Shown: piece after piece, positions 2,970 to 37,657 of the stretch
Layout of the letters: each line of letters starts with the position of its first letter
Numbering within the stretch: position 1 is the stretch's first letter
Source: Jaapia argillacea MUCL 33604
Lineage: Eukaryota > Basidiomycota > Agaricomycetes > Jaapiales > Jaapiaceae
Assembly (NCBI GenBank): GCA_000697665.1
Contig: KL197714.1
Span: 1,164,049-1,228,048 of the forward strand
DNA: 64,000 nt
Direction: 5' to 3'
The notes under the pieces: model-generated
What the model was told of the DNA's origin: nothing
Databases searched by the model: none
Seen by the model: the letters and a program-made list of their open reading frames with translations, nothing else
Made by a program: the position numbers and the translations under genes

Positions 2970-4334
2970 ATGTCTCCTCTCGGTATACTGCCCTTTGAGC
3001 TCTGGAGCGATATATTCCTCCACTGCCAGAGCATACACGAAGTCAGCATGACCGACCTCACGCTTGTGTGTCGTGCCTGGCTGGACGTGATTGAACAAAC
3101 CCCCGAGCTTTGGACCAACGTCTCCCTCACTTGGAAAGAAAACCTGACCAACATTCCTCGTCTACAAAAACGCCTCACCCTTTCTCGCGACCTCTCCCTC
3201 ACAGTTCGCATCGCCAATACCCTTCTCGTTATGGACTCTGAGGAGATTAGGCCCGCCATTTTGCTGTTGAAGGGCCACGTACATCGGATGAAGACCTTGG
3301 ATATAGTTCACAACTATGATGCACAGTTGAACTATATCTGTGATATCCTCGCATCGTCCCCTGCTCCGAGGCTCGAAAGGGTTACTTTGGCTATACCCGA
3401 TCCGCCATTGGCTTCCAGCCGGATAATCTTGTCCCAGGACTCATTCCAATCTTCCCCTCGACTCAAGGAAGTTGTTTTCCCCCTCCACTTTTTCCCCGTC
3501 CCCACGGCGAGACTCCTCACCACGCTCACCTCTCTTCGTTTCACGAAGAGCTCATACACCTATGACTCTAACCCGTCTCGTCGACCCAATTATGGGCATG
3601 ACGACCTCGTAACGTTGCATGGTATCCTACAAAGTTGTCCCCTCCTGGAACACTTTCAGCACAGCTGTCGTCACACTCATCCAAGTTCAGTATACCAACC
3701 CCGGGTCCTCCCCAGGATTACCCTTCCCTATCTCCTATCCATCGACGTTACAAGTCCAAGCATCGGGGCGGACATCGTGAAGTGCATTCACGCACCTGCA
3801 CTTCGCTCCCTTCGAATTGATGGAAGCGGGTGTCCCGACAGGTTCCGCCCAGAACAGGACGGCATACTCCCTCGCCTAGCCGAGGGATCGCCTCTGTTGC
3901 AGACCATTTCTTTGATCCGCATATCTTGGCCACGGCTCTCATATGTGGTGCTCTCTCAACGATTTCCTAACCTTCAGCATCTCATCTTCCACGGTTGCGA
4001 CCTCTCCGATGACATCTTTACCAACACTTCCATCCCCAATTGGCCTTTACTCACGAGACTCGAACTCATCGAGGCGAATCAAGTCTCCCCCAATGCTCTG
4101 ATAGAGTTCCTGCGTGGCAAGTCCTCGAGCAGCTTAGCAGAGGTTGTCATCGACCGTTGCAGCAAGTTTTCTCACAAAAGCTGTCTCAGGGTCTCAAGGC
4201 TGGTCCCAATATTGATTCGTAAGCCGAATGCGATATATTATTCCAGCAGGGAGATGTCTGAGCGCCGTTTAGCTGCGTCAAAATACGTGTCCGGTGATTT
4301 CTTGAGGTTGGATAATAGGCCGGTCGCTGCGTAG
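2970..4334 (+). CDS. F-box protein with leucine-rich C-terminal region
   Basis: Single-exon gene of 454 aa. The F-box is at the extreme N-terminus (LGILPFELWSDIFLHC through LVCRAWLDVIEQTPELWTNV, about residues 4-50). This is the standard Agaricomycete F-box, which binds Skp1 in SCF ubiquitin ligases. The rest has repeated leucine-rich segments (LPRLAEGSPLLQTISLIRI, FPNLQHLIFHGCDL, WPLLTRLELIEANQV) resembling degenerate LRRs for target binding. An open frame begins at 2961 with GTG; the first ATG in that frame is 2970 and is taken as the start. The target is unknown. Such genes form large, fast-evolving families in mushrooms; two more lie in this window (40.1-41.9 and 44.3-46.3 kb). Confidence 0.85.
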   Translation: MSPLGILPFELWSDIFLHCQSIHEVSMTDLTLVCRAWLDVIEQTPELWTNVSLTWKENLTNIPRLQKRLTLSRDLSLTVRIANTLLVMDSEEIRPAILLLKGHVHRMKTLDIVHNYDAQLNYICDILASSPAPRLERVTLAIPDPPLASSRIILSQDSFQSSPRLKEVVFPLHFFPVPTARLLTTLTSLRFTKSSYTYDSNPSRRPNYGHDDLVTLHGILQSCPLLEHFQHSCRHTHPSSVYQPRVLPRITLPYLLSIDVTSPSIGADIVKCIHAPALRSLRIDGSGCPDRFRPEQDGILPRLAEGSPLLQTISLIRISWPRLSYVVLSQRFPNLQHLIFHGCDLSDDIFTNTSIPNWPLLTRLELIEANQVSPNALIEFLRGKSSSSLAEVVIDRCSKFSHKSCLRVSRLVPILIRKPNAIYYSSREMSERRLAASKYVSGDFLRLDNRPVAA

Positions 4335-4782
4335 GCTTATATCATGCCTGCAGGCGGGCATTTGGGAACCAGGGCGTAATCGAAGTTGTGAGCGTCGAGC
4401 ACCTGTATCCGTTGGTGATTTCCCCAGAAATGTCCAGTTCAACTATACATCGAATCAACAGATACTATGTGCCTCAGATAACATTTCCACATCGACCAGC
4501 CCGGGCTCGAGGCGCTGGTGGATTGGCAGTCTTAAACATGCCATCTGGGGAAGAAAGCCCACAATAGTTGTGTACAATTCCATGGTACATGGATATTGCA
4601 GTTCCCGTCAGCTCCCATTGAACCGAAGGGAATAAATGGACGACCCGTGAATGAAAGAGAGGCCAAAGATCTCCCCGACGAATGATGCATCTGATGAATG
4701 ACCTCTTCTTCTCCGCCACCATATCGCTCCTCTCGTGTGCATTCGCGCGATTCCGAGGGGATATGACTCGAAGTCTCCCAGC

Positions 4783-5784
4783 TCATATCTCCCTGATCGT
4801 CCGGGTTACAAGACCAACACCTTCCCTTACGAGGTCCTTCTCATCATCTCTAACCTTCACCCAAAGACCCAGTCCATCGAGTTTGTCCGGATGCCACCGA
4901 AGGAGAGATGATCGGATTATTTCCTTCTTCGTGGTCGGCACGGGGGTAAGGCTGCGACTGGGAGGTGGCGCCTGTTCGCCTGCCAGAAGTTCTTGGGGGT
5001 CGGCTTTTGGTGTGCCGGGACGAAGACTGAGGGGAGATAACAAAAACTCTTTGATCGACACAGCCTTCAACTCTTCCACCGTCCTGGGGGAAACGCGGAC
5101 GGGCCAAGGGATGTCTTGAAAAGTCAGGCCTCCAACACTTTCCCCACCTCCCAGAACCTGAACGAACTCGGACCAGTTCTTTTCATACCCTTCCCAAGAC
5201 TCTCTAACCTTCCTCTCCTCTTCTCGAATTCTGAGCTCCTCCCTGATCGCCTGTGTCCTGGCTAGATCCCGCTTTCCAGACGCATCGCGTAGGACACCTC
5301 CTGTTCGTACCCATTCATATTCTCCGAGGGAGGCGAGGTCTGATTCGCGTTGAATCCGCGTGGTGCGGCGTGGGGAGTCTGAGGATACGGGAGGTGCTTC
5401 GGAAGGTGCCTTATCGTCGCGACTATGCAGTTGAGGAGTAGCATCCTCAAGGCGACTGCTACCGCCATCATTACGCGGTAGAGTACCAGTACTGGGGGTG
5501 TGACGCGTGGCACCACTGGGATCGGGCGACCCAGGGGGAGGAAAGGCAAAATACCCTCTGGGCGAGCCCTGTGACGCCTTGGAGGACTTCAGCTTGATGG
5601 GGGTGTCGTTAGTGTATTTACCGAGGGGTGTCCCATATATCGAGGGGCTTGCCACGCTCTTCGGCGTAGCGAAACTCGAAGTATTCGACCCAGGAGTGTC
5701 GAATCTCCATGAGGAAGTCCATCCGCTTGTGGGTTTCGTTGGTGTAGCAAAACCGGTGTTCCAGGAGAAGGAGGTCGACTCCAT
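4783..5784 (-). CDS. NFKBIL1-like protein with C-terminal J-like domain
   Basis: Single exon, 333 aa from the ATG at 5784; the frame extends 12 nt further but only with TTG. Residues 1-150 are Ser/Thr/Pro-rich and look disordered (repeated ATPK/ATPT-like motifs). A charged, likely helical segment follows (RTQAIREELRIREEERKV, then WEGYEKNWSEF), then the block LTFQDIPWPV and a C-terminal J-like element with an HPDK motif (SLLRWHPDKLDGLG). That order (charged helix, DIPWP block, RWHPDK) matches the C-terminal half of animal NF-kappa-B inhibitor-like 1 proteins. The ankyrin repeats found at the N-terminus of the animal protein are absent. Role unknown; the HPD tripeptide is the Hsp70-contact motif in true J proteins, so Hsp70 interaction is an inference. 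Confidence 0.72.
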   Translation of the reverse strand: MESTSFSWNTGFATPTKPTSGWTSSWRFDTPGSNTSSFATPKSVASPSIYGTPLGKYTNDTPIKLKSSKASQGSPRGYFAFPPPGSPDPSGATRHTPSTGTLPRNDGGSSRLEDATPQLHSRDDKAPSEAPPVSSDSPRRTTRIQRESDLASLGEYEWVRTGGVLRDASGKRDLARTQAIREELRIREEERKVRESWEGYEKNWSEFVQVLGGGESVGGLTFQDIPWPVRVSPRTVEELKAVSIKEFLLSPLSLRPGTPKADPQELLAGEQAPPPSRSLTPVPTTKKEIIRSSLLRWHPDKLDGLGLWVKVRDDEKDLVREGVGLVTRTIREI

Positions 5785-6940
5785 ACTATCCAGCAACCTC
5801 AGCCTGTAGCGTTTCGAAAGTCAAGCGCAGAAAGAAAACACAGTTCGTACCAAGTTCGTGCGGTGCAAAAGTTGAACGGCAGTAGGGGAGCCAAATTAGG
5901 AAACTAAGAACGAAACTGCGTGGGAACAACAGCGTGGGATGTAAGTCCTGGGCACTTTGACCACCGACTTCATCCATCGCCGACTGCTTTCCGCCATCGA
6001 GCTCGCCTTTCCCACTTTGCGCCCTCGGAATGCCCGCCAGGTGCATTGTTCCAGCTTGGGATTATTTCCAATTCGCTTGTCCTATCGGAATGGCGCTCCG
6101 CGAGCTTGAAGTATGCTTTTGTCTCTTCTCAACATTCCAGAGATCTGGCGACAGAACTTGACACAAACGGGGAGTCTTCCAACCCTGCTGTTGGTCCTCG
6201 TGCTCCAACCTTGTATGTGGAGCCCAGAACTGTGGCCTCTGCTTACCTGATAATACCCTCTGGTTGAGGAACCGCTATCATTCACGGATGAAGATGGGCA
6301 TCGTGTCTTTAATTCTTTGCTGTGCTCTGATGGTTGCTCGGGATACCTCTATCCCGACCATCTAGAAGAATTCATGGTCCTTCTGACCACCTTGTCCTCT
6401 CATCACGAAATCTGTGTCAACCCGACGTAATGTTTGCTGGTGAACATGTCCTTTTCATTTTGGGGTGTCTTCTCCGCTCCGTCCACCTGGATTTCCTCTC
6501 ATGCGAATCGTGCGATACAGCACCTCGGTCACTTACCCCGGGTTTAATCGTCATCGGTACTGGAATGCCACACCTCTTCGCCTCCTTCCATCCATGTTCC
6601 CTCTTCGGAAATTCGGTCCGAAATGAAAATTCCGCAGTAGGCTCACTGCCACTCCAAAATGAATTTGGGAGAGCCTCCGAAACTGCAATCAGAAGCGAAT
6701 TCTACACCAAAGCAGCCTTCCTCATCGATACCTGAACTGGTGATATTTTCTCGGTACATGGGGCATCTATCCTGTGGATAACGCTACAGGTGGTCCGGAT
6801 AATACAATGAATACAACGTAAATGGATTGCACCCGAGGGTACCGGCGCGACTCCAAGCTTTATGAAGGATAGTGTGCCCGACCCTGCTCAGCCCTACTCA
6901 CAAGTCTCCTCGTAGGCTCTATATGGGTATACGATCCCGC
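5785..6940. other. intergenic, one coding-looking stretch at about 6277-6429
   Basis: 1.16 kb between two minus-strand genes. On the plus strand, about 6277-6429 reads as roughly 50 codons with balanced composition (FTDEDGHRVFNSLL followed by YLYPDHLEEFMVLL) and ends in TAA. I could find neither a start nor convincing neighbouring exons. It may be one exon of an unrecognised gene, a relic, or chance. The rest shows short open frames only. Confidence 0.3.
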
Positions 6941-7533
6941 CTATACCCCTACTATTGTCACCTTGGCCTTGACTGATTGCAGGTGGTCATCTGTTATGTA
7001 CCGAGGGGTATCCTTCCATCGAATCTGCTCTACCCCTAGCGTCTAACGGATTCGAAGTTTCGCCGTCAGGTCATCAGAAAAGTCTCGGTAGACCAGGTAC
7101 GTACTATGATATCGCCAGACTTCAGAGCTGTGGCTCCCGTGATTTTAGAGTCGTTGACGTATGTGCCATGTTTTGATGCCAGATCTCTGATATAGACCTT
7201 AGAAGATAGTGTCAGCGGGATGAACGGTGAAGACCTTGTGTCGCGCAAACACACCTTGTGGTTTTCGGCCCAAACCTCCGCATGTCGCGGACAGAGGGGC
7301 AAGGGATCGGAGTCCTTGATTTGAACGTTCGCAGCTGAAGGCTTCTGATCACGAATCGGTGAGAGCCACCCATTGGTGGGACTGCCTATTCTGGCTGGAG
7401 ATTGGGCATCGCCTACCAGAAGTTCGCGTCCCAAGGTGACTCTTATGCTTGGAGGAAGGGGGATATAGCGTGGAGAGAAGGAAGAACCCTCAGAGGATGC
7501 GATCAAGGTAAGCATGGGGGTGCCGAAGTTCAT
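6941..7533 (-). CDS. small FHA-domain protein
   Basis: Predicted 157-aa protein made almost wholly of a forkhead-associated domain, a phosphothreonine-binding module. Exons are 7533-7255, 7197-7105 and 7042-6941 (279+93+102 nt). Conserved FHA blocks are in order: VTLGRE, then CPRHAEVWAENHK (the R/H phosphopeptide-contact region), VYIRDLASKHGTYVND (canonical GT-N motif) and SGDIITLG. The first intron (7198-7254, 57 nt) is in frame and stopless; the family motif HxVYIRD appears only when it is removed. The second (7043-7104) is needed to reach ITLG and the C-terminal ITDDHLQSVKAKVTIVGV. ATGs at 7533 and 7515 are both possible. No transmembrane segment or second domain is seen, though an upstream exon remains possible. 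Confidence 0.78.
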
Positions 7534-17819: not shown

Positions 17820-20173
17820 ATGCTATCATCTCTCACCCTTTTCCTTCTCCTCTCCCTCGCCTTGGGAGTGGTCAACGCCAATACCTTCCCCACCCTAACC
17901 TCCCCCCTCGGCCCCGTCATAAACCTCGGCTATGCAGCCTACGCAGGAAACTCCACCTCCCCAACCGGTCAAGCAAACAGCAACGTAACCTTTTATGGTG
18001 GTATACCATTCGCCCAACCCCCAGTGGGCAATTTGAGGTTCAGAGCTCCACAGATGTTGGATGAGAGTGTTGTGAATGGCGGTAACGTACCTGTTGTCGA
18101 TGCTAGGAACTGGGGGGCTGCGTGTATTCAGCAACCTGCTATGGTTGGTATTGGGTCTGAAGGTATGTCTGATTTAGGGCGAGGGAGTGTGTGGCGATGA
18201 GGGTGATGGGTTTACTTTTGTAGATTGTTTAACTTTGAATGTTTGGAAACCGACGAATGCGAGTGAGGGTGATAACCTCCCCGTCGTAGTTTACATGTAT
18301 GTGAGTACCCCCACCTCCCACTTCTCCCATACCCCAACTAACACACCCACCAGGGCGGAGGCCACTACTACGGAGTCAGCACCTCTCCCCCCCCTCCCCT
18401 TCCCCCCACCCCTCTCTAACATCCCCACCCCCAGACAACCCAAGGTTTCCCAATGTATGACTGGGTCTCCCAACACCCAACAGGCATAATAGCAGTCTCA
18501 ATGAACTACCGCCTCAACATCCTCGGTTTCCTCTCCGGCCCCGAACTCCAAGCCGACGGCGACGCCAACACCGGTTTGTTAGACCAAAGAGCCGCCTTGG
18601 AATGGGTCCAACGAAATATCGCCCAATTTGGTGGGAATCCTGATGAGGTTACGTTGGATGGAGAGAGTGCGGGGGGTGCGAGTGTCGTCATGCAGATTAC
18701 GGCTTATGGAGGTGAGTCTGTCTGTTTATGTGAGGTGTGGTGTGGTGGTTCTGAAGGCAGTTTGGGGGTGGGTAGGTACGAAAGGTGTACCTTTCAAACG
18801 AGCCATAGCACAATCAATAGGATACGGATACACCGCAAACGCATCCTACGCCGAAGAACTCTTCCGTACGCCCCTTCCCTCCCCCCTTCCCTTCGCCTCC
18901 TTAACACCCCCCACAGAAAACGTAACACAAGTAATCGGCTGCCCCCCCTCCGGACCCTCCACAATGCCCTGCCTCCGCTCCGCCTCCCTAGGTTCCATAG
19001 TAGCCGCCATCAACCACTCACCAACAGGCCGCATCTCACCCGTCGTAGACGGCACTTTCATGCCCCAACTCCCTTCTCGCTTAGTATCAGAAGGCGCTTT
19101 CAGTCCAGTAGAGTTTGTGGGAGGCCATTGTAGTAATGATGGCAGGACTTTCGTGGGTGGTAGTCCGAGCCAGTTTGTGACTGATGCGGATGTTGAGAGG
19201 CTGGTGTTTAAGAGGTGGCCTGGGGTTGTGAGTTCCCTTTCCTTGTTTTCTTTCGCGCGCGTGTGCGTGCTCTTGGGTGGGGGATTGATTACGCTTCTTT
19301 TTGGGGGGGTAGAATAATGAGACGATACAACAAGCCATGACACTCTATCCCTCTCCAAACGCCACCGGCAGTCCCTTCGCAACTCAATACGACCGCGCGT
19401 GGACTATGGCTCAAGATATCATCTTTGGTTGTTTGTACGTCCCTTTCCCCTTCCCCTTCCCCTCACCCAAAAAATTCACTGTCAACTCGCACCAGCGATT
19501 GGTACTTGGAAGAAGCGTTGTTAGCCAAAGGTGTTCAGAACGTTTACGCTTATAGGTCAGATCCCTTCATCTCCTTCACATAATTCGTTTTGAAATACTC
19601 GTTTGTAGATGGAACGCGCCTGATCCTACGTTGTTGGCTGCGGCACCGTATGAAGGGGTGATGCATACATCTGATTTGTACTTCTTATTCGACGGTAAGC
19701 CACTTATACACTTCTTCACTTATCCTTACCATGTTTATACGTGAACGCTTCTAGGGACCAAGTGAGTCGATAATCCATTGGTGTACTGGCAGAATCACTA
19801 AATGATCCCTCTAGCACGGCTCCCAACGCCGGTGCAACCTTTACACCATTTAACGCCGTACGTCCCCTCCCCTTCCCCCACTCACCCCCCACTAACCCCT
19901 TCCCTCCCCAAGACCGAAAACCTTCTTTCAAAAGAAGCAATCTCCTACTGGACATCCTTCGCCTCCACCGGTTCCCCATCCACAACCAAAACGCCCTACT
20001 CACCTTCCTGGCCTCTCTTCTACTCCAACGCAACCACAAGGTATCGGATGGTGCTGAGTGAAGCGCAGAGTGTGGGTGGGAGTGGGAGTGCGGTGGAGGT
20101 TTATCCGGAGGTTGAGATTGAGAGATGTAGGTTTTGGATGGGGGCGGATGTTACTGCGCAGACTGCTATTTGA
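17820..20173 (+). CDS. secreted type-B carboxylesterase / lipase
   Basis: 565-aa secreted hydrolase. Twelve exons (17820-18162, 18224-18300, 18354-18374, 18435-18711, 18776-18865, 18917-19227, 19313-19434, 19496-19555, 19609-19694, 19755-19761, 19815-19857, 19913-20173) sum to 1698 nt. The N-terminus ([20 protein letters not shown]) is a signal peptide. [17 protein letters not shown] is the classic esterase N-terminal motif. The oxyanion loop GGGHYYG is encoded by a 21-nt exon. Nucleophile Ser225 lies in GESAGG, the acid is probably Asp344 in SNDGRTF, and His453 is in [14 protein letters not shown] 7-nt exon (19755-19761) is required to keep frame before [11 protein letters not shown]. Several Asn-X-Ser/Thr sites suit glycosylation. 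Family length is usual for fungal secreted esterases; the substrate may be lipid, ester or lignocellulose-linked. Confidence 0.92.
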
Positions 20174-20326
20174 TTGGGGGTGGGGTGAATGATTGTATAT
20201 AGACACCTTTCAGCGTCTATCTGATGTCTAGCTTGCGTCGATTGCCGGTTTGGCGCAGATTGACTACTTGTTCAGGTGGACTCTGTTCACTACGCTCGCC
20301 CTTGACCAACATTCATCTCGATCAAA

Positions 20327-21195
20327 ATGTCCACAACACCCACTGAACGTTGCACGAAATGCAGTCTCAGCATCGGCGAGGTAAAGTCATGCAGTAGGTG
20401 TAAAGGACCAAATGCAGCAAAGTATTGCGTGCGCATAATCTGCATTTCTTCCTTTCCACCTCCCACAACATTGCTCTCCTCGTTCCATATAGTCGAAGGA
20501 ATGTCAAAAAGCTCACTGGGCCATCCACAAACCCATTTGTAAACCATATCGCACAGACGAAGTGTGGGGTATCAAGATCTTATATAACGATGCGGTACCA
20601 GGCTCCGATGTACACGATGGAGACGTCAGCAAGCGCTTTCAGCACGTCCTCCTCAAAACCTCGCACGCCATCTTCAAGAAGGGTGAGATGTGCCCTGTAC
20701 CCGGGAAGATTGGGGTTCCGCTCGTCATTTGGAGTGAGGCTTTGATGGGTACTGGCCTCAGAGCGCCGGAGAACCAGGCTGCTGTGTATTTGCGGATTGA
20801 ACCTCACAATGCGTTTGCGCCCATTCAGTGAGTTCTATGCATAGTCTTGGTTGAGTGATCGCGACTCTGATATTTGGTGCGTCCCAGCTGGCAGATGAAC
20901 GGAGCGGGAGACGTACGCCTGCACTTATTTCCCTAACATGTTGCACACTGACGTTGAGTAACAGTGCTTAATCCTGCGACGGGATAAACGACCGCTAACT
21001 CGAGAGACGATCGAAGTGGTGTTCAAGTTTTGTGCAAAGATGATTAATGGGGCGGACTATCCCGAGAGTGATGGATGGGCGCCTATTGGTGAGTTGGCGA
21101 CGCCTGCCGCGTTTCAGATGTTCTCGAGAGATTATTATGCTCAGCAGAAGGCGAAAGGCAGAGAGGGATTTGACCGGTTCTTTGTCCCTTTGTAG
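20327..21195 (+). CDS. MYND zinc-finger protein
   Basis: 230-aa protein from four exons (20327-20428, 20493-20827, 20888-20912, 20965-21195; 693 nt). A MYND finger occupies residues 9-51: CTKCSLSIGEVKSCSRC, then AAKYC, SKECQKAHW and HKPICK; the first intron falls directly after KYC. MYND fingers bind proline-rich partners. The remaining 180 residues have no domain I recognise but carry strong blocks (FQHVLLKTSHAIFK, VPLVIWSEALMG, AAVYLRIEPHN, ATPAAFQMFSRDYYAQQ). The third exon is only 25 nt and is supported because HWQMNGAGD joins in frame. Exons 2 (from LYNDAV), 3 and 4 are duplicated immediately downstream. The start follows the esterase stop by 153 bp on the same strand. Confidence 0.8.
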
Positions 21196-21300
21196 CACGG
21201 TTTGGGTTTGGAGATGACCAAGTATGAGCGCTATATGAGCTTGAGTTGGATCTTTAGCTCGTGCAAACATTCGCTGGTTTCCCTCTTGTCGATACACGAA

Positions 21301-21910
21301 GTATAACGATGCAGTACAATGCTCCGATGCATATGACGGAGACGTCAGCAAGCGATTTCAGCACGTCTTGCTCAAAACCTCACATGCCATCTTCAAGAGG
21401 GGTGAGATATGCCCTGTACCAGAAAAGATTGGGATTCCGCTTGTGATTTGGAGTGAGGCGTTGATGGGTGGTGGGAGAGAGGCGCCGATGAATCAGGCTG
21501 CTGTGTATTTGCGGATTGAACCTCATAATGTGTTTGCGCCCGTTCAGTGAGTACTGGTGTAGTCTCGGTTGAGCGATCGTGGCTCTGATATTGGGACCAG
21601 CTGGCAGCTGAATGGAGCGGGAGAGGTACGTCTACATAATATTTTCCCCAACGTGTTGCGTACTGACGTGGGGCACAAGTGTTTAATCGTGCGACGGGAC
21701 AAACGACCGTTAACTCGAGAGACGACCGAAGTGGTGTTCAAGTTTTGTGCAAAGATGATTAATGGGGCTGGTTATCCCGAGAGCGATGGATGGGCGCCCA
21801 TTGGCGAGTTGGCGACACCGGCAGCGTTTCAGATGTTCTCGAGAGATTATTATGCCCAGCAGGAAGCGAAAGGCAGAGAGGGATTTGACCAGTTCTTTGT
21901 CCCATTGTAG
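21301..21910 (+). pseudogene. partial tandem copy of the MYND gene, lacking the MYND finger
   Basis: Repeats the MYND gene from the YNDAV codons to the stop codon. Corresponding exons are about 21301-21546, 21601-21625 and 21680-21910. The last two have identical lengths to the upstream copy (25 and 231 nt), and all splice sites are retained. Protein identity is about 85-90% by eye, with no stop in the coding blocks. The MYND exons are missing and no in-frame ATG precedes the conserved part; the first is inside SEALMG. Either a 5'-truncated non-functional duplicate or a fragment recently captured under another start. The open frame and intact splice sites mean the duplication is young or some constraint remains. 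Confidence 0.7.
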
Positions 21911-22128
21911 GACGATGACCGAGTATGAGCCTAGATAGGATCTCATACTGCATACATTCGCTCTTGTCGACGTTGATCTAATGTGCAAGAGAAGGAACAA
22001 TGCAGACACGACCTAAGCTGAGTTTGAATCGACAACTCCGCGAACGGCGCCAGTCCCAATATGGAGATCCCAGTTCGCGGCGGTGCTGCAGACTGGCGAC
22101 GCTACGAGTCTATGCACGACTAGCATAC

Positions 22129-25100
22129 ATGACAAGCATCACGCCCTATTACGCCCACTTCCCATACCACCGCCCTCCCACTTCTCCCAATGCCCCACAG
22201 CCTCCTACTCCTCTCATCCCAGACTCCCATTATCGCGTTACTCCTGCACTAGCCCCCCAACATCTATCTGATCCTCCCTCGGACTCTACAAATTCTCTAC
22301 CTGCCCTCACCCATGATGATAATATCACTCCAGACGTCACACCCAACGTCCCCGCTGACCCTCGACGATGTACAGTAAGAGGTTGCGTGACCATGTTACC
22401 CCCCAATTATAAACCAAAGATGTGCGAGGCTTGTCGGGGTCGACATCGAGTGTACGCTACTACCAAGAGAGCTAGGAGGAAGTTGGAAAAGGCAGCTGTC
22501 ACAGGTAACGGTGATGCTTCACCAGTCCAGCAGCAGCAGCAGACTTGGGAACGCAGTGGTGGTTCATCAGAGTCTAGTGTCCCTCTGGTAGGTCCCCCCC
22601 CCCAGCCTTCACTATCTCTGACAAACCTGGATCTCTATCTCTCGCTCTCTATAGTCTGGGCATGCAAGTACATCTCCCGAGGTGAGTCACGCTTGCTCGA
22701 ATACGCACCGGCAAACCCTGATCGGTTTTTTTTTCTCTTTCTTTCAGCAATCGACACCGTACACATATCCTCCACCTACTCCCTGGGTCCCAAATGATAA
22801 CATCGATCCAAGATTGTTCACCAATACATCTTCAGAGCTAGCAGGAGCTTTACATTTACCTACTAGCTCAGGATCGTCCGAACCTAGGAGATCTCATTAT
22901 CGTGAGCATGTAACCTGCACCCCCCAAGCACCCAACCCCCACCCTTCCCCACCAAAATCCCCTTCCCTCCCTCCCCCAAACTCACACCAACATGAAAACG
23001 ACCTCGAACCCGAACACGACCCAGACGACCAATCCCCCCCTTCCCATCCCACAATAGTCCGCTACTGCTCAGTCAAAGGCTGCAAAGCCACCCTCCCCAC
23101 CTCCTACTTCTTCAAAATGTGTGAACCATGCAGAGATAGGTATAGAGGTTACGGAAACACTAAAAGAGCCAAATGGAAAAGGGAGAGGATAGCTATGAAG
23201 TTTGAGTTGGAGAAGATTAGGGAGAAGGAGGATAAGAGGAGAGAGGAGAGTGGGCTTCCTGTGAGTTCCTGCCCTTTTCCATTGTTTTCAAGATGTGTTT
23301 TTGGATGAACTCTGATGATTGGCTTTGGTTTTTTTTTTTTTGGGGGAATCGTCTGTAGCCCATTAATGAGTTACCGTTTAACCGACGACAAGATTGGGAA
23401 ATGAAAGTCCTCAACAACCTCCAATTCCGAGCAAAAGAAGGTACCCTCCTCTCACCCACTCTCCTCCCCACCTCCACCTCTCCCAATACCTCCCCCAATA
23501 CCAACAACGACACACCCACCTCACCTCCCTCTCCCACGTCTCCCACGTCTCCCACTCCAACACTAGGCGTAAAAATGTGTACAGTCTCCCACTGCCATGC
23601 CATCCTACCCTCCACGTACGCCTACAAACGCTGTGACCAACATCGTTTACAAAACCGATATCATAGCCAGTTGAAGAGGGTTAGGGAGAAGGAGATTAAG
23701 GGGGCTGTTTTGCAGGAGTGGATGGTTGTTACTGGGGATCCGGGGGGTGTTTTTGTTAGTCCTGATTTTGGTGGGGAGGAAGGGGAGGAGGAGGGAGCGG
23801 GGAGGGTGGATGGTGGTGGGGATGATGGTGGCGGTGGAGTGGATGGGGAAGAGCAGGTAAGATTCTCTTTTGGTGGTTTACTCGATGATGATGATGATGA
23901 TGATGAATTTAATCACTCTTTTTTTTTTGGTTTGTTAGGTAACCCCAGCTCGACCGCCACCCATAAGAGGTACACGTCGATCCAACCACGTCTGTTCAGT
24001 CAGACAATGTAAGAACCTATTAGACCCGAAAGTTCCTTGGAAGATGTGTGAGCTTTGTCGGGCTAGGGATCGACAGGTTAGGAATTCGAAGGGGAAGGGT
24101 AAGAAGGATGTGGTGGTGGTCGCTGTTGAGGAAGGTGGTGGTGATGAGGAGGAGGGGGAGGGGGAGGGGGAGGAGGGGGAACGGGTGTGTTCTCCTGTGG
24201 TTGACCGGAGCCTTGTGGAGTCGCATGACGTCGAGGATCAGGCGACTCAGGAGCCTGGTCAAAGTACGTGTATGCATCCTTGAAAGATGCATCGGGACTC
24301 TGACCTCACATTTTCAAGCTGTCTTTTCGAATTTAGTCTTACCGAACGATACAGTTCCTTTACCAGTACGTTCCCCCCCTACTTTCATACCATCGAGGTA
24401 ATACTCATACGTCACCTACCTAAAAGCCATCGACTTCGACACCAGATATGAATTTACCCGAAACTTCTAGTTCGTCCGATACTCCTGAATATGCTACTTT
24501 CATTTATGAACATACCGATGGTGTCCTTCTCCCGAAACCGAAACGTGCCAAGAGGCGGAAAGCTATCACTGTAAACTCAAAACCCAATCCGACGGAAACA
24601 TCCCAGCCAGTCGCTTCAACATCAACATCCACCACTCAGAGTACTCCTGCTCAGGCTACTCCTGACCAACCTCCCATGTCTTATCCCTATATGCAATACC
24701 CTTACCCATATTATTATCCCCCACCTCCATATGGTATACCCCCACCCTATGCCCTACCACCCTATACACAACAACCTCCATACCCTCATCCCTCATCATC
24801 TCAGGGGCAGAATCAGCAACCAGCACAACCGGGTCAATATCCGTACCCACCTTACCCTCATCCGTATCCATATCCTCAACATCCTTATGCGTACCCGCCG
24901 TATGCTCCTTACCCTTACCCGTATGGTGCGCGCCCGTATGCGCCACCACCGCTGCCGCCGCCACAAGGTTCTTCTCAGGCTTATGCCCCGGCTCATAATC
25001 CTTATGCACCAGGGTCGTACCCTCCGCCTACTGTGGCTCAAGTTCCCACACCTGCTGGTACTTCCTATGCTCCGGTCCCACCTGTTACTCCTGTCACAAC

Positions 25101-26044
25101 TTCGTATACATCGGCAACGACACCATACACGTCGGGAAGTACGGGATATGCTTCGAGTGGTGGTGGTGGTGGTTATACCTCTGGTACTACCCCATACACA
25201 TCTTCTCTCCCCGGAATCCCAACATCTTCGTTCCCACCTCCATCTCTAGGCTTCAATGGTTCAGTCCAAACAGCTCCGACGAAGCCTAACGCCTGGAAGA
25301 ACCTAGCCGTACGTTCCCCCCCTCCCCCATTCTATCGCCAGATCGAGTTGCTGAAAGAAGAGTTTTTTTTCATTGTAGCCCGATGCGGCGTTATTCACCT
25401 TGAACAAAAAACGAAAGAGAACCGTGTTTGAGAAGAACGAGCAGGGTGTACTCGTCGCCTCCAAAACGCAATCTCCAATAACATCCTCTTTGCCAGAATC
25501 GTCGTCGTCGGTTGGTGGGTCGGATAACGTCACCGCTACGCCTACCACATCTTCCTCGGCTCCTACTTATGATGCGTTTTGGGCTACTATGACTTCTAAT
25601 GGGAGTGTAGACGATCATTCGGTTTCGACTACGAGTGATACTCAAGCGATCATGGCTGAACCCCTAGACAGCGCCCCAAGTCCTGGATCCGAACATGAGG
25701 TCGAAAATGCGGTGGATATTTCCACGGGTCACCCTCATGAAAACCAGGAACGAGACGTTAACATGTCCGCTGCTGCTGCTGCTGCTGTCAGTCTCCCTCG
25801 ATCGTTAATGATTCATGCGCTCATATTATACCCGTTTGAACAGCGTGCTTGCAGCAACAAGGCGTGTCATCGTACCTTGCCCGTCGGTTTGCACGGAACC
25901 TTGTGTGACAAGTGTAGGCTCCGATTGAAGAAGCGGCAAGCGAAAGCGAAACAGCGTTTCAAGCTGGAACCGAAGAAGTTTGTTGGTGTGCTGCCCACTA
26001 TTAAAAGTGGTGGTGGTGACGATCATCCGAGTGGAGAAGAGTAG
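22129..26044 (+). CDS. unrecognised protein with five C-x4-C-x12-C-x2-[CH] modules
   Basis: No known family assigned. Eight exons (22129-22587, 22655-22681, 22748-23260, 23359-23856, 23939-24263, 24337-24365, 24427-25308, 25379-26044) sum to 3399 nt, 1132 aa. Five modules share exact spacing C-x4-C-x12-C-x2-[CH]: near residues 81, 269, 407, 518 and 1069 (CTVRGC..MCEAC, CSVKGC..MCEPC, CTVSHC..RCDQH, CSVRQC..MCELC, CSNKAC..LCDKC). Each is followed by a strongly basic stretch (for example RGYGNTKRAKWKRER). They look like small zinc-binding, possibly nucleic-acid-binding units. Between modules 4 and 5 lie a basic PKPKRAKRRK cluster (a likely NLS) and a long Tyr/Pro-rich low-complexity tract. The stretch 25787-25843 (57 nt, gtcagt...cag) is probably a further in-frame intron, giving 1113 aa. 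An in-frame ATG at 22000 is an alternative start. Nuclear regulator is an inference. Confidence 0.75.
23884..23906. repeat. GAT trinucleotide microsatellite in an intron
   Basis: Seven GAT units within the intron 23857-23938 of the five-module gene. If the intron were retained it would add acidic residues in one frame; otherwise a plain microsatellite. Confidence 0.75.
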
Positions 26045-26328
26045 GGATCTAGCTTCGAATGCACCACCCTTCAGTCCTGTCCTCGCATACCTTACCTAGG
26101 CTCTCTTCGTGGACGGGGATCCGCCAATGTAAATTATTGAACGTGTACTTGTACATTTAGGCATGATTAAAGGCTAGCTACGACGATCACTACAGATGTC
26201 AGAAGAGAAACGGGTTATCATGATACATGGTAAACGAGCAAGACAAACGACAGACGTTGCAGAAGGTCCCAAAACAGCATTGAAACGAACGAAAACCTCA
26301 AGGAAACAATAGTTCGACATGGCAACAC
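26045..26328. other. convergent 3' intergenic region
   Basis: 284 bp between the stop codons of two convergent genes (the five-module protein on plus, the APH-like gene on minus). It holds only 3' flanking sequence. Confidence 0.4.
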
Positions 26329-28709
26329 CTAGTATTCATATCCATCATGATCCTTCCTCCGTTGACCACTCTTTGCAGTGCTCAACCAAGCCTCGAGCCT
26401 CCTCCCAAGCTCTCCACCACGTCCGCCACATATATCGCCGGTGGCGTTCAACAACTTCTCCTTCTCCCTCTCTTCGATCACCACTTTCGCTGCAAGAGGG
26501 ATACCTCCATTCACCTTCGAATTCGTACTGTTGACTCGCAACCTCCCAAAGTTGTTCCCCAACTTGTCGGTAATGTCCAGAGAGCTATCCTCGCTACTCC
26601 CAACCGATGAGTTGGCAGGAGATTGGAGTTGGGGTGGAGGGGATACGGTATAGCCGTTGGGGAAGTAATCTTCTTCATCGTCATCGTCCGCATCCAGAGC
26701 CGAGCCGGGTCCGCTTCCGCTATCCTTCCCATTCATCTCTTCCCAACTCTTGAACCAATCTTCCTCTTCCTCCTCTGGACCAAGAATACTCTCGACTAAA
26801 CCTTCCTCCCAACCATCCCACTCTGCACAACGATGAGCCATCCTCATCCTCGCACCAGTTGCTTCATGATGGAGCCACTCGTTCGCCAATGTGGCGAGGG
26901 TGACTGTTCGTGTTTTGATTCCGTGTGATGTGACCAGTGGTAGGGATAGAGGGGTGGTGAGTGAGGTGTTACGGGTGGCGAGATCGTGTACGACAGATCG
27001 GAATAGTCGAGAAGTGAAGGGACTGGCTTGGAGGAAAGGTGGTACATGTGCTGACGCCCACAGTGGCCGAGTAGCTGTCGACTCCCAATCAATGATGCAT
27101 GTCTAGAGTTTGACTTGTCAACTGGTACGTTCCGAAGAGAAGGAAAGAAGGACTCACGATCTTCGAATGATCATCCTCATCAATAAAAATGTTCTCCAAA
27201 CTCAAATCATGACAATCCATAGCAAACTCCTCCGCTCGCTCCGCCGTGCCACTGCCACCCCCATCATAATGAGTCCCAATGGCCATCCGCTCCATCATCC
27301 TAACCCACCTATCCATCTCTTCCCGAACTCTCTGCTCTCTCTCCACTAAATGCGCAACCAAGAACGTGCTCCTCTGCATCCTCCTATAATCCCTGTACAT
27401 ATGATCACCAGGTCCCTCCCACTCACCCTCACTCTCCTCCCAATCCCATTCGGTACTCTCGTCACTGGCATCCCCAGGCACAGCTCTAATTTTATGATGG
27501 CGAGAGGCATGCACCTCGTCGGGATCAAGACGAAGCTTATGCGGAGCAGATTTGCCCTCATTTTCTCGGATTACCCCATGTATTTCCCGCTGGGCGACGG
27601 AAAGAAGATAGTCATGTGTTGATCGCCATGGCCCGCGATCGAGTTCCTCATTGGTTAGATCACCTCGTCCAGACCCAAAGAATGGCCAGGAAACAATAGG
27701 GCCAATATGAACGTCGGGTACTTGAAGTGTTTGCATTCGATGGAAAAGAGGTTTTGGAGTCGCTTGCGCTACAGGCGTAGCTGGTGTGATTGTATGAAAG
27801 AATGGGATAGAGCTACCGGATGGTCGTGGTGTTTGAGCAGTGGAGGAAGGAACAGATGAATGCAGTGGAGGCGGTGGGCCGCTATATAAGGACCCCATCG
27901 AGGAGAACCGGTGTCCAAACAAAGGGATCACCAAGAGCGCCAGATTATCGAGAAGCTTCAGTAGCTTGTCGTGAGACATGGAATGATAGACTTTTGCGAG
28001 CGGAATCCCGCGAGCCTAATATCAAAAACGCGACACGAATAACAGAGTTCACGAATAGCACGATAAGTCACGTGACTGATATGACGGAGAAGTTCGAAAA
28101 CTTGCCTTGGACATGAGAATATATTCACCTCCCAATCGATTGTAGGGGTTTGAATCGTAATGGTATACGGTGGGCACTGGAACATTTGACCGAGTACGCA
28201 GGTAGTGTAGAGTGGCAACTTCGGACTCTATCTTCAGTCTTGGCATGAACCGACGGGCGACTCGGGCAACCACTTGGCGTGCGTCCACCAGAGTGATCAA
28301 ATATGCCTACAGGATCCCGTCAGTTGCCTCGGACAGTGAGTCTCATCAAACGATTGATGAGCTCACTTTATGGAAAGTACCTGATCAACTCAACGTCAGC
28401 CCCACTGTCGGTATTTCGGAAACGATGACTTGAACACTCACCGGCACTCAAGAATTGGATTCTGCCCGCCTCGACGCCCATTCGTTCCTTGACGACATCC
28501 TTCAAAACCTTCCTATCCACCTGGAATGGCGCCATCAAATGTGCTGAAGACGCATCCGACTGAGCCTCCTTCTTTCTATCAGCGTGTTCAAAGTCCCAGT
28601 CCCATTCCATGGCCGGCTGTTTCGACGAATCCCCAACTAAAGTCGCCGCCGAGGTTGAACTGGACATGTTTGAGCAGTTCAAAGAGAGATCGTGGCCGTG
28701 GTAGTGCAT
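26329..28709 (-). CDS. APH-family phosphotransferase-like protein
   Basis: 704-aa protein with an aminoglycoside-phosphotransferase/kinase fold. Five exons (28709-28442, 28382-28369, 28306-28106, 28015-27158, 27102-26329) sum to 2115 nt. Conserved motifs in order: FLSAGTFHKAYLITLV (nucleotide loop, where GTFHK comes from a 14-nt exon), ARVARRFMPRLKIESEVATLHYLR (Lys and alpha-C Glu region), VPVPTVYHYDSNPYNRLGGE, the catalytic loop CHDLSLENIFID (HxD..N) and IIDWEST (the DFG equivalent). The intron 28016-28105 begins with GC, not GT. The C-terminal third is acidic and low-complexity with no counterpart in small APH proteins. Fungal members are very numerous; substrates (small molecules or proteins) are generally unknown. 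A second in-frame ATG (SSSTSAATLV) 42 nt in may be the real start. Confidence 0.85.
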
Positions 28710-33342: not shown

Positions 33343-36300
33343 ATGTCATCGAAGGGTAAGTATCAATCTCGCTGCCGTACATCGAAGATAATCGACTGAT
33401 AACCATGCACATATAGCCATCCGTGAATACGATGCGAAGCTCCTCTTGGCCTACTGGCTCGAGCGAGCACCTTCAGTCGATCCGTCCGCCAAAGTTGAGA
33501 CCAATTTCGTTTACCCTCAACCCAAGGTCGCACAAGTATCATGGGATCCAGCGACCAACACCATCACTCCAGAGAACTCTCTCCCTGGTTGGGTCTTCAA
33601 CACCAAGCTCGTCGCAAAGCCCGATCAGCTCATCAAGCGTCGTGGAAAGGCTGGATTGCTTGCGTTGAACAAGACTTGGGAGGAGGCTAAGCCTTGGATT
33701 GCAGAGAGGGCTGGTAAGCCCCAACGGGTGAGTCTTGATTCAATCCCTTTGGAATTGGACTGGTGGAGCGAGGGGTACTCCGCCGGGTGTCCGACGACCA
33801 AAATATGGAGCGACGCTAGATCGCTGTCGATGGACCTCCGCTCGCTATCGGAGGGGCGTGTTGCGCGCCCCATCTGATAGCCTTCCTCGTTCACAATCAT
33901 ACTTCGATCTAACAGTCGCGTTTTCAATGAGGCGTGTCTTGAGGACGCGTGCTTGATTGGATCACGTGACCTTCGAGATGTGTTGATCGATCACTTGTCT
34001 TATCTTGCACGCCCATTTTTACCTCAGAATCTGCGAATGTCATGTTCTTGGATGCTCACTCGTGTTTTTTCAGGTGGAGGCGGTCACTGGTACCTTGAAT
34101 AACTTCATCCTCGAACCGTTCCTGCCGCATCCCTCAAACACCGAATATTACGTCTGCATTACTTCTCAGCGCGAGGGTGATTCGATCCTCTTCTATCATG
34201 AAGGTGGTGTGGATGTCGGCGACGTTGACGCGAAGGCGTCCAAGCTGGACATTTTGGTCGGCAAACCTTTCCCCTCTCGATCCACCATTCTCTCCACCCT
34301 TCTTTCCCAAGTCCCATCCGCGAAGCAGCAAACTCTCGTTGACTTCCTGATTCGCCTATATTCCGTCTACGTTGACCTGCACTTCGCGTATTTGGAGATC
34401 AACCCCTTGGTCGTTCTTGATGCCGTCGATGGCGGCCAGCCCACCATCCATTACTTGGATATGGCTGCCAAGTTGGATCAAACTGCCGAGAGCATTTGTG
34501 GACCCAAGTGGAGCATCGCTCGTGATTTGTCGGTCTACGAGGTTGGTAGCCAAGTGACCACGACTGCCGCCAAAGGTGGTAAGGTCAATGCTGATCGTGG
34601 ACCTCCTATGGTGAGTTTGTCCAGTGTAGATCCCGAGAATAAGTACTGACTGGTTTCCAGGTTTGGCCCGCTCCTTTTGGTCGCGATTTGACAAAGGAGG
34701 AGGCGTACATTCAGAAGCTTGACGCCTCCACCGGTGCCTCGCTCAAACTTACCGTCCTCAACCCCGAGGGTCGCATTTGGACCATGGTCGCTGGTGGTGG
34801 TGCTTCCGTCGTCTACTCCGACGCCATCGCCGCTCACGGCTTCGCTCAAGAACTCGCTAACTACGGAGAATACTCCGGTGCTCCTAGCGAAGGTCAAACT
34901 TATGAGTACGCCAAGACCATTCTGGACCTCATAACTCGCGGAACGACCAACCCGGAGGGCAAGATCCTCATCATTGGTGGTGGTATCGCCAACTTCACCA
35001 ACGTTGCTGCTACCTTCAAGGGTATCATCCGCGCATTGAAGGAGTACAAGAACCCTTTGATCAACCACAAAGTTCGCATCTTCGTTCGTCGTGGTGGTCC
35101 CAACTACCAGGAGGGTTTGAAGGCTATGAGGTTGTTGGGTGAGAGCTTAGGTGTTCCCATCAAGGTGTACGGTCCCGAGACCCACATCACCGCAATCGTC
35201 CCTCTTGCTCTCGGCGTTAAGCCCAAAGACAAGACTGCGCAGAGCATCCCTCCTTCTCACCCCGCTTCGCCTCCTCCCCAGGCAACCGCCGTTGAGACCC
35301 GTGGTGGTGATGATAGCGGTGTCGGTTCCATTGGCCCTGGTGGCGAGCGCACTCAACCGGATGACCAGATCGTTAGGTTCGACACTGGTTTGGGTGGTGC
35401 CAAGGAGCGACCCTGGTTCCGACCATTCGATGCCTCCACTCGCTCATTCGTCTATGGCCTTCAGCCCCGCGCCATTCAAGGCATGCTTGACTTCGACTAC
35501 TCTTGTGGACGTGAGGCTCCTTCTGTCGCCGCCATGATTTATCCTTTCGGTGGGCACCACATCCAGAAGTTCTATTGGGGAACCAAGGAGACTTTGTTGC
35601 CGGTCTACACCACTGTCGAGGATGCCGTCAAGAAGCACCCTGAAGTCGACGTCGTCGTCAACTTTGCCAGCAGCCGAAGTGTGTACTCGAGCACTCTGGA
35701 GATCTTCAACTTCCCCCAGATCAAGGTACGTCCTCATTGACGATGTTGATGAACGTCGTCGCTCATAGTTGTATGCTAGGCTGTAGCTTTGATCGCTGAG
35801 GGTGTCCCCGAGAGACATGCTCGTGAGATCTTGCACCTCGCGAAGGCCAAGAACGTCTTGATCATCGGCCCTGCTACTGTTGGTGGGATCAAGCCTGGAT
35901 GCTTCAGGATCGGTAACTCCGGAGGGTATGTTCTTCATTCCCACTGGCTATATGCGCGAAGCTAATAACGACTTTAGTATGATGGACAACATCATTTCGT
36001 CGAAGCTCTACCGCCCCGGCTCCATTGGTTACGTCTCCAAGTCCGGAGGCATGTCGAACGAGTTGAACAACATGCTCTCCCTCTTCACGAACGGTACCTA
36101 CGAGGGTATCGCCATCGGTGGTGATCGTTACCCCGGCTCCACCTTCATCGATCATTTGTTGCGGTACGAGAAGGATCCCGACTGCAAGATGCTCGTTCTC
36201 CTTGGCGAAGTCGGTGGAATCGAGGAGTACCGTGTCATTGAGGCGGTCAAGAAGGGCGAGATCAGGAAGCCAATCGTCGCTTGGGCTATTGGTACTTGCG

Positions 36301-37657
36301 CAAAGATGTTCTCGACGGAGGTTCAGTTTGGTCATGCTGGTAGTATGGCGAACTCCGACATGGAGACTGCTGATGCCAAGAACAAGGCGATGAGGGCAGC
36401 CGGGTTCATCGTTCCCGAGACTTTCGAGGAGCTGCCCCAGACGTTGAAGGAGACCTATGAGCGCTTGGTGGCCGAGAGGAAGATTGTTCCCAAGCCTGAG
36501 AGGGATCCTCCTGTTATCCCCATGGATTACAAGTGGGCTCAGGTATGCTGAATCGTCTTCGCAGGCAACTCCCACCTGACCACTATATTGTTGTAGGAAC
36601 TTGGTCTCATCCGTAAACCCGCTGCATTCATCTCCACCATCTCTGATGAGCGTGGCCAAGAGCTTATGTATGCTGGTATGCGGATCTCCGACGTGTTCAG
36701 AGACAACATCGGTCTTGGTGGTGTCGTTTCCTTGCTTTGGTTCAAGCGACGCCTACCTCAATGGGCCACCAAGTTCATTGAGATGGTTTTGATGCTCACA
36801 GCTGATCACGGTCCTGCTGTGTCTGGGTATGTTGACCTCCGATCACCTGAAGATTTGGTTCTCACCTGTTGTCACCTTCAGTGCCATGAACACCATTGTT
36901 GCCACCCGTGCCGGCAAAGACTTGATCTCCTCGTTAGCCTCCGGTCTGTTGACCATCGGTAGTCGGTTCGGTGGAGCTTTGGACGAAGCTGCCGCGATGT
37001 TCTCGAGCGCTCGTGATCGCGGCCTCACGCCCCGAGAGTTCGTCGAGGAGTGCAGGAAGCAAAACAAACTCAGTACGTTGTTACTTCGATGTCTTCGACC
37101 TATTTCTCAACTGGGCTTCATTCTCTAGTCAGCGGTATCGGCCATAAGATCAAGAGTGTGAACAACCCTGATCTCCGTGTTGAGCTCGTGAAGGAGTATG
37201 TGATCAAGAATTTCCCCGCCCACAGTCTCCTCGACTATGCTCTCGCTGTTGAGAAGGTCACCACTTCAAAGAAGGACACTGTATGTAGAGGTTCTTCACA
37301 TGATCTCAACATGCACTGATCTTGTTTATAGCTCATCCTCAACGTTGACGGTTGCATAGCTGTCTGCTTCGTCGATCTCTTGCGGGATAGTGGAGCCTTC
37401 ACTCCCGAGGAGGCCGATGAGTATATCAAGGTCAGTCATTCGGGTTGTCTGCGAATTTTGTTCAACTCGACTGATATCTGGTTGCGCAGATTGGTACCCT
37501 CAATGGTCTCTTCGTTCTCGGTCGCAGCATCGGTTTCATTGGTCACCATCTCGACCAGAAGCGTCTCCGTGCTCCTCTCTACCGTCATCCCGCCGACGAC
37601 ATCTTCATCAACATGGCAGATATTTCGCAACCTCGTGTGTTGGGCAAAATGAACTAG
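33343..37657 (+). CDS. ATP-citrate lyase (single fused polypeptide)
   Basis: Cytosolic enzyme: citrate + ATP + CoA to acetyl-CoA + oxaloacetate + ADP + Pi, supplying acetyl-CoA for lipid and sterol synthesis. Eleven exons (33343-33355, 33417-33727, 34074-34610, 34661-35725, 35780-35925, 35978-36542, 36597-36826, 36882-37072, 37129-37280, 37332-37430, 37490-37657) sum to 3477 nt, 1158 aa. The N-terminal citrate-binding ATP-grasp part starts [18 protein letters not shown] CoA-ligase part carries GNSGGMMDNI and the phospho-histidine motif FGHAGS (His about residue 810). The C-terminal citrate-synthase-like part includes [31 protein letters not shown] and [12 protein letters not shown]. The fused form is the basidiomycete/animal arrangement; ascomycetes split it into two genes. 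The first exon codes only four residues, and intron 2 (346 nt) is several times longer than the others. Confidence 0.97.

Follow-up and report, generated by a model that had tools for sequence, protein, structure and literature searches.

A five-fold cysteine finger in a Jaapia argillacea protein with a relative in a Mutator-type transposon

The DNA analysed here is a stretch of 64,000 nucleotides from contig KL197714.1 of Jaapia argillacea MUCL 33604 (termed the window, with positions counted from its first nucleotide), and the surrounding genome comprises 43.7 Mb in 95 contigs. Between positions 22129 and 26044 of the forward strand, a splice model derived from the DNA alone describes a gene whose seven introns are all of the GT-AG type and measure 61-98 nt, and whose spliced frame remains open for 1132 amino acids. 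The gene and the features of its product are listed below.

22129..26044, + strand: gene model of eight exons with an open spliced frame, encoding a long low-complexity protein of 1132 aa with five finger units
22129-22587, 22655-22681, 22748-23260, 23359-23856, 23939-24263, 24337-24365, 24427-25308, 25379-26044, + strand: exon chain of the splice model
22369..22482, + strand: unit 1, CTVRGCVTMLPPNYKPKMCEAC plus basic tail (motif scan; 49% identical to unit 2)
23066..23179, + strand: unit 2, CSVKGCKATLPTSYFFKMCEPC plus basic tail, extended by a predicted E/K/R-rich helix of 43 residues (motif scan, AlphaFold2)
23578..23691, + strand: unit 3, CTVSHCHAILPSTYAYKRCDQH plus basic tail, with His as the fourth ligand (motif scan)
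23993..24106, + strand: unit 4, CSVRQCKNLLDPKVPWKMCELC plus basic tail (motif scan)
24535..24561, + strand: basic cluster KPKRAKRRK, candidate nuclear localisation signal judged from sequence and translation
24667..25100, + strand: tract of low complexity, rich in Pro and Tyr, separating units 4 and 5 (translation; limits approximate, set by eye)
25406..25420, + strand: basic cluster KKRKR, another candidate nuclear localisation signal, likewise judged from sequence and translation
25787..25843, + strand: possible alternative in-frame intron of 57 nt (GTCAGT...CAG; length divisible by 3), immediately 5' of unit 5
25850..25963, + strand: unit 5, CSNKACHRTLPVGLHGTLCDKC plus basic tail, close to the C-terminus (motif scan)

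Exons 2 (27 nt) and 6 (29 nt) are the least secure stretches of the splice model, and with the alternative intron at 25787-25843 the protein would be 19 aa shorter. As a separate observation, short introns and gene content point to a fungus, and the parts of an ATP-citrate lyase were found in successive frames of one strand, which fits the single-chain form of the enzyme, a basidiomycete trait.

When the whole 64 kb window was scanned in six frames, the pattern C-x4-C-x12-C-x2-[CH] was found exactly five times, each time in this protein, and 19 of its 21 cysteines lie inside the units. A chance origin of the motif could be ruled out by shuffling the protein, since a single copy arose in 7 of 20,000 shuffles and two copies in none. 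The five units are homologous beyond their cysteines: outside the ligands their summed BLOSUM62 similarity amounts to 327 as compared to a shuffled mean of -167 (sd 37), a value reached by none of 5000 shuffles, and the 49% identity between units 1 and 2 corresponds to an E-value of 1.6e-10 in a whole-genome search. The 16 residues that follow the last ligand contain six to nine Lys or Arg and at most one Asp or Glu in every unit. The original prediction, which had announced five units in a protein of about 1130 residues at these coordinates and on this strand, is confirmed by the 1132-residue open GT-AG model and the motif scan. Its identical x4, x12 and x2 spacing was recovered in all five units, as were the Arg/Lys-rich sequence after each of them and the His serving as last ligand of unit 3. 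Two of its claims were borne out in part: the ligand spacing of the proposed 22-residue unit stands but its length does not, the alignable unit (ligand core and basic tail) extending over about 38-47 residues, and the fixed x12 spacing holds within the window gene but not across the family, x10 and x14 being present among the copies on contig C10 described below.

Relatives of the unit were sought in the same genome by searches that score the best candidates, so that copy counts are lower bounds. The unit was found in three settings: the window gene, contig C10, and an element on contig C84 of which a near-identical copy lies on contig C16. On contig C10 (L016), a stretch of about 2 kb holds at least four copies of the motif, all on the same strand, with a central spacing of x12, x12, x10 and x14, and these copies probably belong to one gene, as judged from their arrangement rather than from a spliced model. 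The C84 unit, CSNTHCTTVLPVGTRWKTCAKH, is also followed by a basic tail and ends on His, as does unit 3. All nine matches obtained at E 10 or better with a consensus query fell in these loci, the query having been composed with the relatives in view and hence not being independent. A window-only HMM was then built from the five window units and run against six further loci as well as the window, E-values being calculated for a genome-sized search space estimated at 1.1 million frames in six-frame translation. It detected the C84 unit at E 1.4e-7, a score reached by none of 2000 ligand-preserving shuffles of that unit. Of the four C10 copies it listed three, with E-values of 1.1e-4, 8.7e-4 and 0.19. 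Conversely, an HMM of the four C10 copies recovered window units 1 (E 9.4e-6), 4 (5.9e-4) and 2 (9.2e-4) and the C84 unit (2.4e-5), but units 5 and 3 only weakly (0.31 and 2.9). The first C10 copy is the weakest: it was missed by the window-only HMM, finds itself alone and has a tail poor in basic residues. A match on contig C1, which contains three stops and no stop-free motif, was dropped as a further copy.

The C84 locus is a Mutator-superfamily DNA transposon. Its two copies have the following limits.

L024 803-4304: C84 element, inverted ends of 34 bp at 94% identity, 9-bp duplication GTGAGCCTC
L034 4017-8090: C16 copy, centre unread, different 9-bp duplication GTGATCAGG

The two copies are 99.4% identical over 357 finger-bearing positions and 100% identical over 82 positions at the other end, and the two insertions lie at unrelated sites. 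Target site duplications of 8-11 bp and terminal inverted repeats are described as hallmarks of Mutator elements (PMC6446971), and the C84 element displays both, with 9-bp target duplications at two sites and inverted termini. The first frame, which opens with ATG, holds the finger unit, and later frames of the same strand hold a MULE transposase domain, which scores 28.1 bits in the genome search (cut-off 27.6) and 25.3 bits in an hmmscan of the single frame. The later frames also contain a CxC...CxH knuckle that resembles SWIM by eye, a domain that Pfam does not report there. Their order, their strand and the bounds of the element suggest that the finger and transposase frames form one gene.

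At least two other MULE matches are present in the genome (C14 and C4), with FAR1-like domains ahead of the catalytic domain that score 26.5 and 21.2 bits, both below the Pfam cut-off of 28.1. In the 9 kb examined around each of these MULEs no relative of the finger was detected, a relaxed scan giving three unrelated matches at C14 and C4 together, all on L029 and none on L030, and the profiles giving nothing. In MULE transposases the DNA-binding domain usually precedes the transposase domain. Since the finger precedes the MULE domain and other MULEs carry FAR1-like domains at that place, the finger appears to fill the slot of the DNA-binding domain, and this position is the strongest evidence on its function. 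The arrangement parallels that of known MULE transposases whose N-terminus carries a zinc finger (FAR1 / WRKY-GCM1, FLYWCH), the homologue of the window finger presumably doing the same DNA-binding job, but none of the FAR1, FLYWCH and DBD_Tnp_Mut models matches the window units. FAR1, FLYWCH and WRKY-GCM1 models were absent for all nine window and C10 units (hmmscan at E 10) and for the C84 finger exon (hmmscan at E 0.01). The consulted part of a MULE survey tabulates SWIM, CCHC, C2H2, FLYWCH, RING and FAR1 among the associated domains and none like this finger (PMC6446971).

The fold of the unit was predicted with AlphaFold2 from an alignment of the five units, the models being built without metal. 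With the five aligned units as input, the best model reached a mean pLDDT of 87.1 and a pTM of 0.52 (77.9-81.0 pLDDT for the other four), with helices at 24-34 and 37-46 and, on each side of the first Cys pair, a two-residue strand (3-4 and 13-14). With unit 2 extended, the best model (pLDDT 90.9, pTM 0.51; 81.4-89.7 pLDDT for the other four) had a single helix at 28-70. In the prediction, a tiny hairpin thus carries the first Cys pair at its turn, and a basic helix begins at ligands 3 and 4. We read this as a treble-clef-like order of elements in which, judging from that order, the four ligands would meet at the start of the basic helix. Foldseek found no confident solved fold in the PDB, returning three matches with E-values from 5.5 to 8.7 for the first model and two matches only (E 7.1 and 9.5) for the second.

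A Pfam profile search of the unit, which the original prediction had proposed as a check, returned no described family over cut-off. This was observed for single units and for a concatenate of four units, as well as for units 1-4 with their linkers and for the unit 5 exon (exons 1-5 and 8 in all). No NCBIfam model exceeded its cut-off for the units, a weak pair of PRK12496 matches (E 0.11 and 0.22) being set aside. Also set aside were PDB profile matches to the units (best E 0.072 and 0.11), a match of DUF6255 to one C10 copy (E 0.0023, 18.5 bits against a cut-off of 25) and weak Pfam matches to Vpu and ribosomal L33. Single-protein scans of IMG/VR and GTDB contigs yielded no relatives, as expected for a fungal family. 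The KDZ transposon CxC clusters (e.g. CxC6, PF18721) are likewise cysteine clusters tied to transposases; CxC6 remained below threshold with the concatenate of four units (E 0.97, 10.2 bits against a cut-off of 27.5), and no KDZ-associated CxC domain was found with single units by Pfam hmmscan. GATA fingers follow the pattern C-x2-C-x17-18-C-x2-C. They resemble the window unit in having four ligands and, beginning at the final CxxC, a helix with basic tail, but their spacing differs, and no GATA model was obtained for the units at E 10 or better, under HMMER filters that drop most matches above about 0.1.

In a literature search conducted largely outside subscription papers no description of this finger was met, a result limited by the fact that a hyphenated-spacing query excludes little; in the text so covered, the string CX4CX12CX2C occurred in one paper, as the first half of the expanded AN1 finger, CX4CX12CX2CX4CX2HX5HXC (PMC9570247). 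The first four ligands of that finger are spaced exactly as in the window units, but AN1 requires four more (CX4CX2HX5HXC), which follow none of the five, and an AN1 identity was rejected on this missing second ligand set and on the lack of any AN1 model match in Pfam.

We consider it fairly probable that the gene encodes a nuclear protein that binds DNA via five small one-zinc fingers of an undescribed, transposase-type family. Unit 3 and the transposon unit have His in place of Cys as last ligand, an exchange to be expected of a metal site, and this exchange, together with the conservation of the ligands, suggests that the unit binds zinc. One zinc per unit would hold the small fold and present the basic helix to DNA: C-x4-C would lie in the hairpin turn, the x12 segment would lead back, and C-x2-[CH] would begin a helix continuing into the Arg/Lys tail, so that helix and tail would face the nucleic acid. 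The disordered Pro/Ser/Tyr linkers may carry the fingers as beads on a string, allowing several sites to be contacted or avidity to be gained, and the basic clusters at 24535-24561 and 25406-25420 may direct nuclear import. Because its finger family is shared with a Mutator transposon, the window protein looks like a multi-finger regulator derived from a transposase-type module. The original proposal of an expanded small repeat of no named family that might bind zinc and nucleic acid agrees with the null family searches, the predicted fold and the transposon homologue.

The basic tails could equally contact RNA or acidic protein surfaces, and other readings of the locus were weighed accordingly. 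An RNA-binding scaffold, in which fingers and tails bind RNA while the Pro/Tyr- and Gly-rich tracts drive condensation in RNP or mRNA handling, would suit the long low-complexity tracts, the basic tails and the failure of any solved DNA-binding finger to match confidently by fold or sequence. We hold it to be unlikely, the best relative outside the gene being the N-terminal module of a DNA transposon. The same homologous module, standing where a transposase needs DNA binding, speaks against units that serve as protein-interaction repeats only, with zinc-stabilised basic helices docking on acidic partners without nucleic-acid contact; the continuation of unit 2 into a predicted 43-residue charged helix and the wide separation of the fingers, unlike tandem C2H2 arrays, are in keeping with such docking, which nevertheless seems very unlikely to us. 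The division of the locus into two adjacent genes, one with units 1-4 and the other with unit 5 and the C-terminal exons, would leave the main reading of the finger intact. It is suggested by the 29-nt exon 6 required for the frame and by unit 5 starting 551 residues past unit 4 in the gene model, but the GT-AG chain maintains one frame with no stop between them and unit 5 matches the other units, and we judge it quite unlikely.

The most improbable reading in our judgement is that of a divergent A20-like, ubiquitin-binding finger acting in ubiquitin signalling. The A20 finger (PF01754) is likewise of the one-zinc C4 type, and its published pattern CX2-4CX11CX2C (PMC9570247) comes within one residue of the window spacing. 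A20 ZF7 (3vux_G) was among the three Foldseek matches of the first model (E 7.5, TMt 0.74), with no A20 match for the second model, and a TNFAIP3 finger appeared at E 1.3 in a nine-unit profile search. PF01754 matched none of the nine window and C10 units by hmmscan at E 10, and a genome-wide search with it, in which four candidates were scored, found none of the units of the gene and no match above cut-off. In addition, hhalign of the units against a three-row A20 alignment gave a probability of 1.6%. All five units have the x4-x12-x2 spacing and a strongly basic tail and lack the Gly-aromatic pair that follows the second Cys in the A20 rows. Membership in the A20 family was rejected on the spacing and on the Pfam profile and hhalign results.

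A position of the window gene inside a transposon is unsupported, since none of the four inverted pairs (18-26 nt) found within 19000-28500 encloses it. The window contains no occurrence of the C84 element's shared 25-nt end sequence, even with up to three mismatches, and Pfam reports no transposase domain in exons 1-5 and 8 of the gene, the part scanned. A tree of ten units gives no resolved direction of descent, unit 5 and the transposon unit grouping at 0.62 support. Either the host gained a transposase module and then multiplied it, or a host finger was taken up by the transposon; MULEs are known to pick up fragments of host genes (PMC6446971). We advance only tentatively, as unlikely, the proposal that the finger is an undescribed transposase DNA-binding domain and the window protein its domesticated, five-fold expanded form. 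The finger matches no named family over cut-off, and small zinc fingers linked to transposases are a kind already known. A domesticated window protein might have the task of recognising transposon ends and of silencing or managing Mutator elements; alternatively, it may represent a new class of fungal transcription factor.

Similar CxxCR-type cysteine units and MULE N-termini are found in hypothetical proteins of mushroom-forming fungi, which would make the family wider than shown here, though still unnamed as far as searched. The present results add a finger without a Pfam or NCBIfam model to the modules common to DNA transposons and host nuclear proteins. With the transposon and two host loci in one genome, binding of the transposon ends by the host protein is directly testable, and a profile of the finger could help to annotate fungal proteins that are perhaps now called hypothetical.

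Outside the five-finger gene, a relaxed scan of the window for the finger motif returned two extra matches, at 6186 and 53060. The latter (CTRATCPEMKAGEWLYLCVAH) is probably the metal site belonging to the Mob1/phocein family itself; it is located directly upstream of a Mob1/phocein match. The features considered here are as follows.

Features of the window and of other loci in the same genome
Window 20962-21195: short open frame, first tandem copy
Window 21563-21910: short open frame, second tandem copy
Window 33987-36551: ATP-citrate lyase, parts on one strand in successive frames
L016 (contig C10), about 3700-7096: second multi-finger locus
L029, 3431-5371: MULE transposase locus, FAR1-like N-terminal match below cut-off
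L030, 3298-5028: MULE transposase locus, FAR1-like N-terminal match below cut-off
L034 (contig C16), 22-3300, minus strand: 1093-aa open frame adjoining the second transposon copy

Directly upstream of the five-finger gene, a tandem duplication was observed (window 20583-21199 and 21302-21914), whose copies are 86% identical across 620 columns and whose short open frames had no Pfam match. Further along the window, the ATP-citrate lyase parts (ATP-grasp, citrate-binding, CoA-binding and CoA-ligase) are arranged like those of the single-chain enzyme.

The MULE match at L030 is interrupted by a stop and scored 40.2 bits in the genome search versus 16.3 bits in a single frame. The open frame adjoining the C16 transposon copy encodes a long WW domain array (PF00397, 276.7 bits with the Pfam profile), in which 7 stretches pass PF00397 individually and further WW domains were seen by eye.

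The multi-finger locus on C10 is probably one gene. Its last frame, ending GELEVGVVADITHRFFPGQRIVVRFRLVG, matched no Pfam family and may carry a conserved domain of its own.
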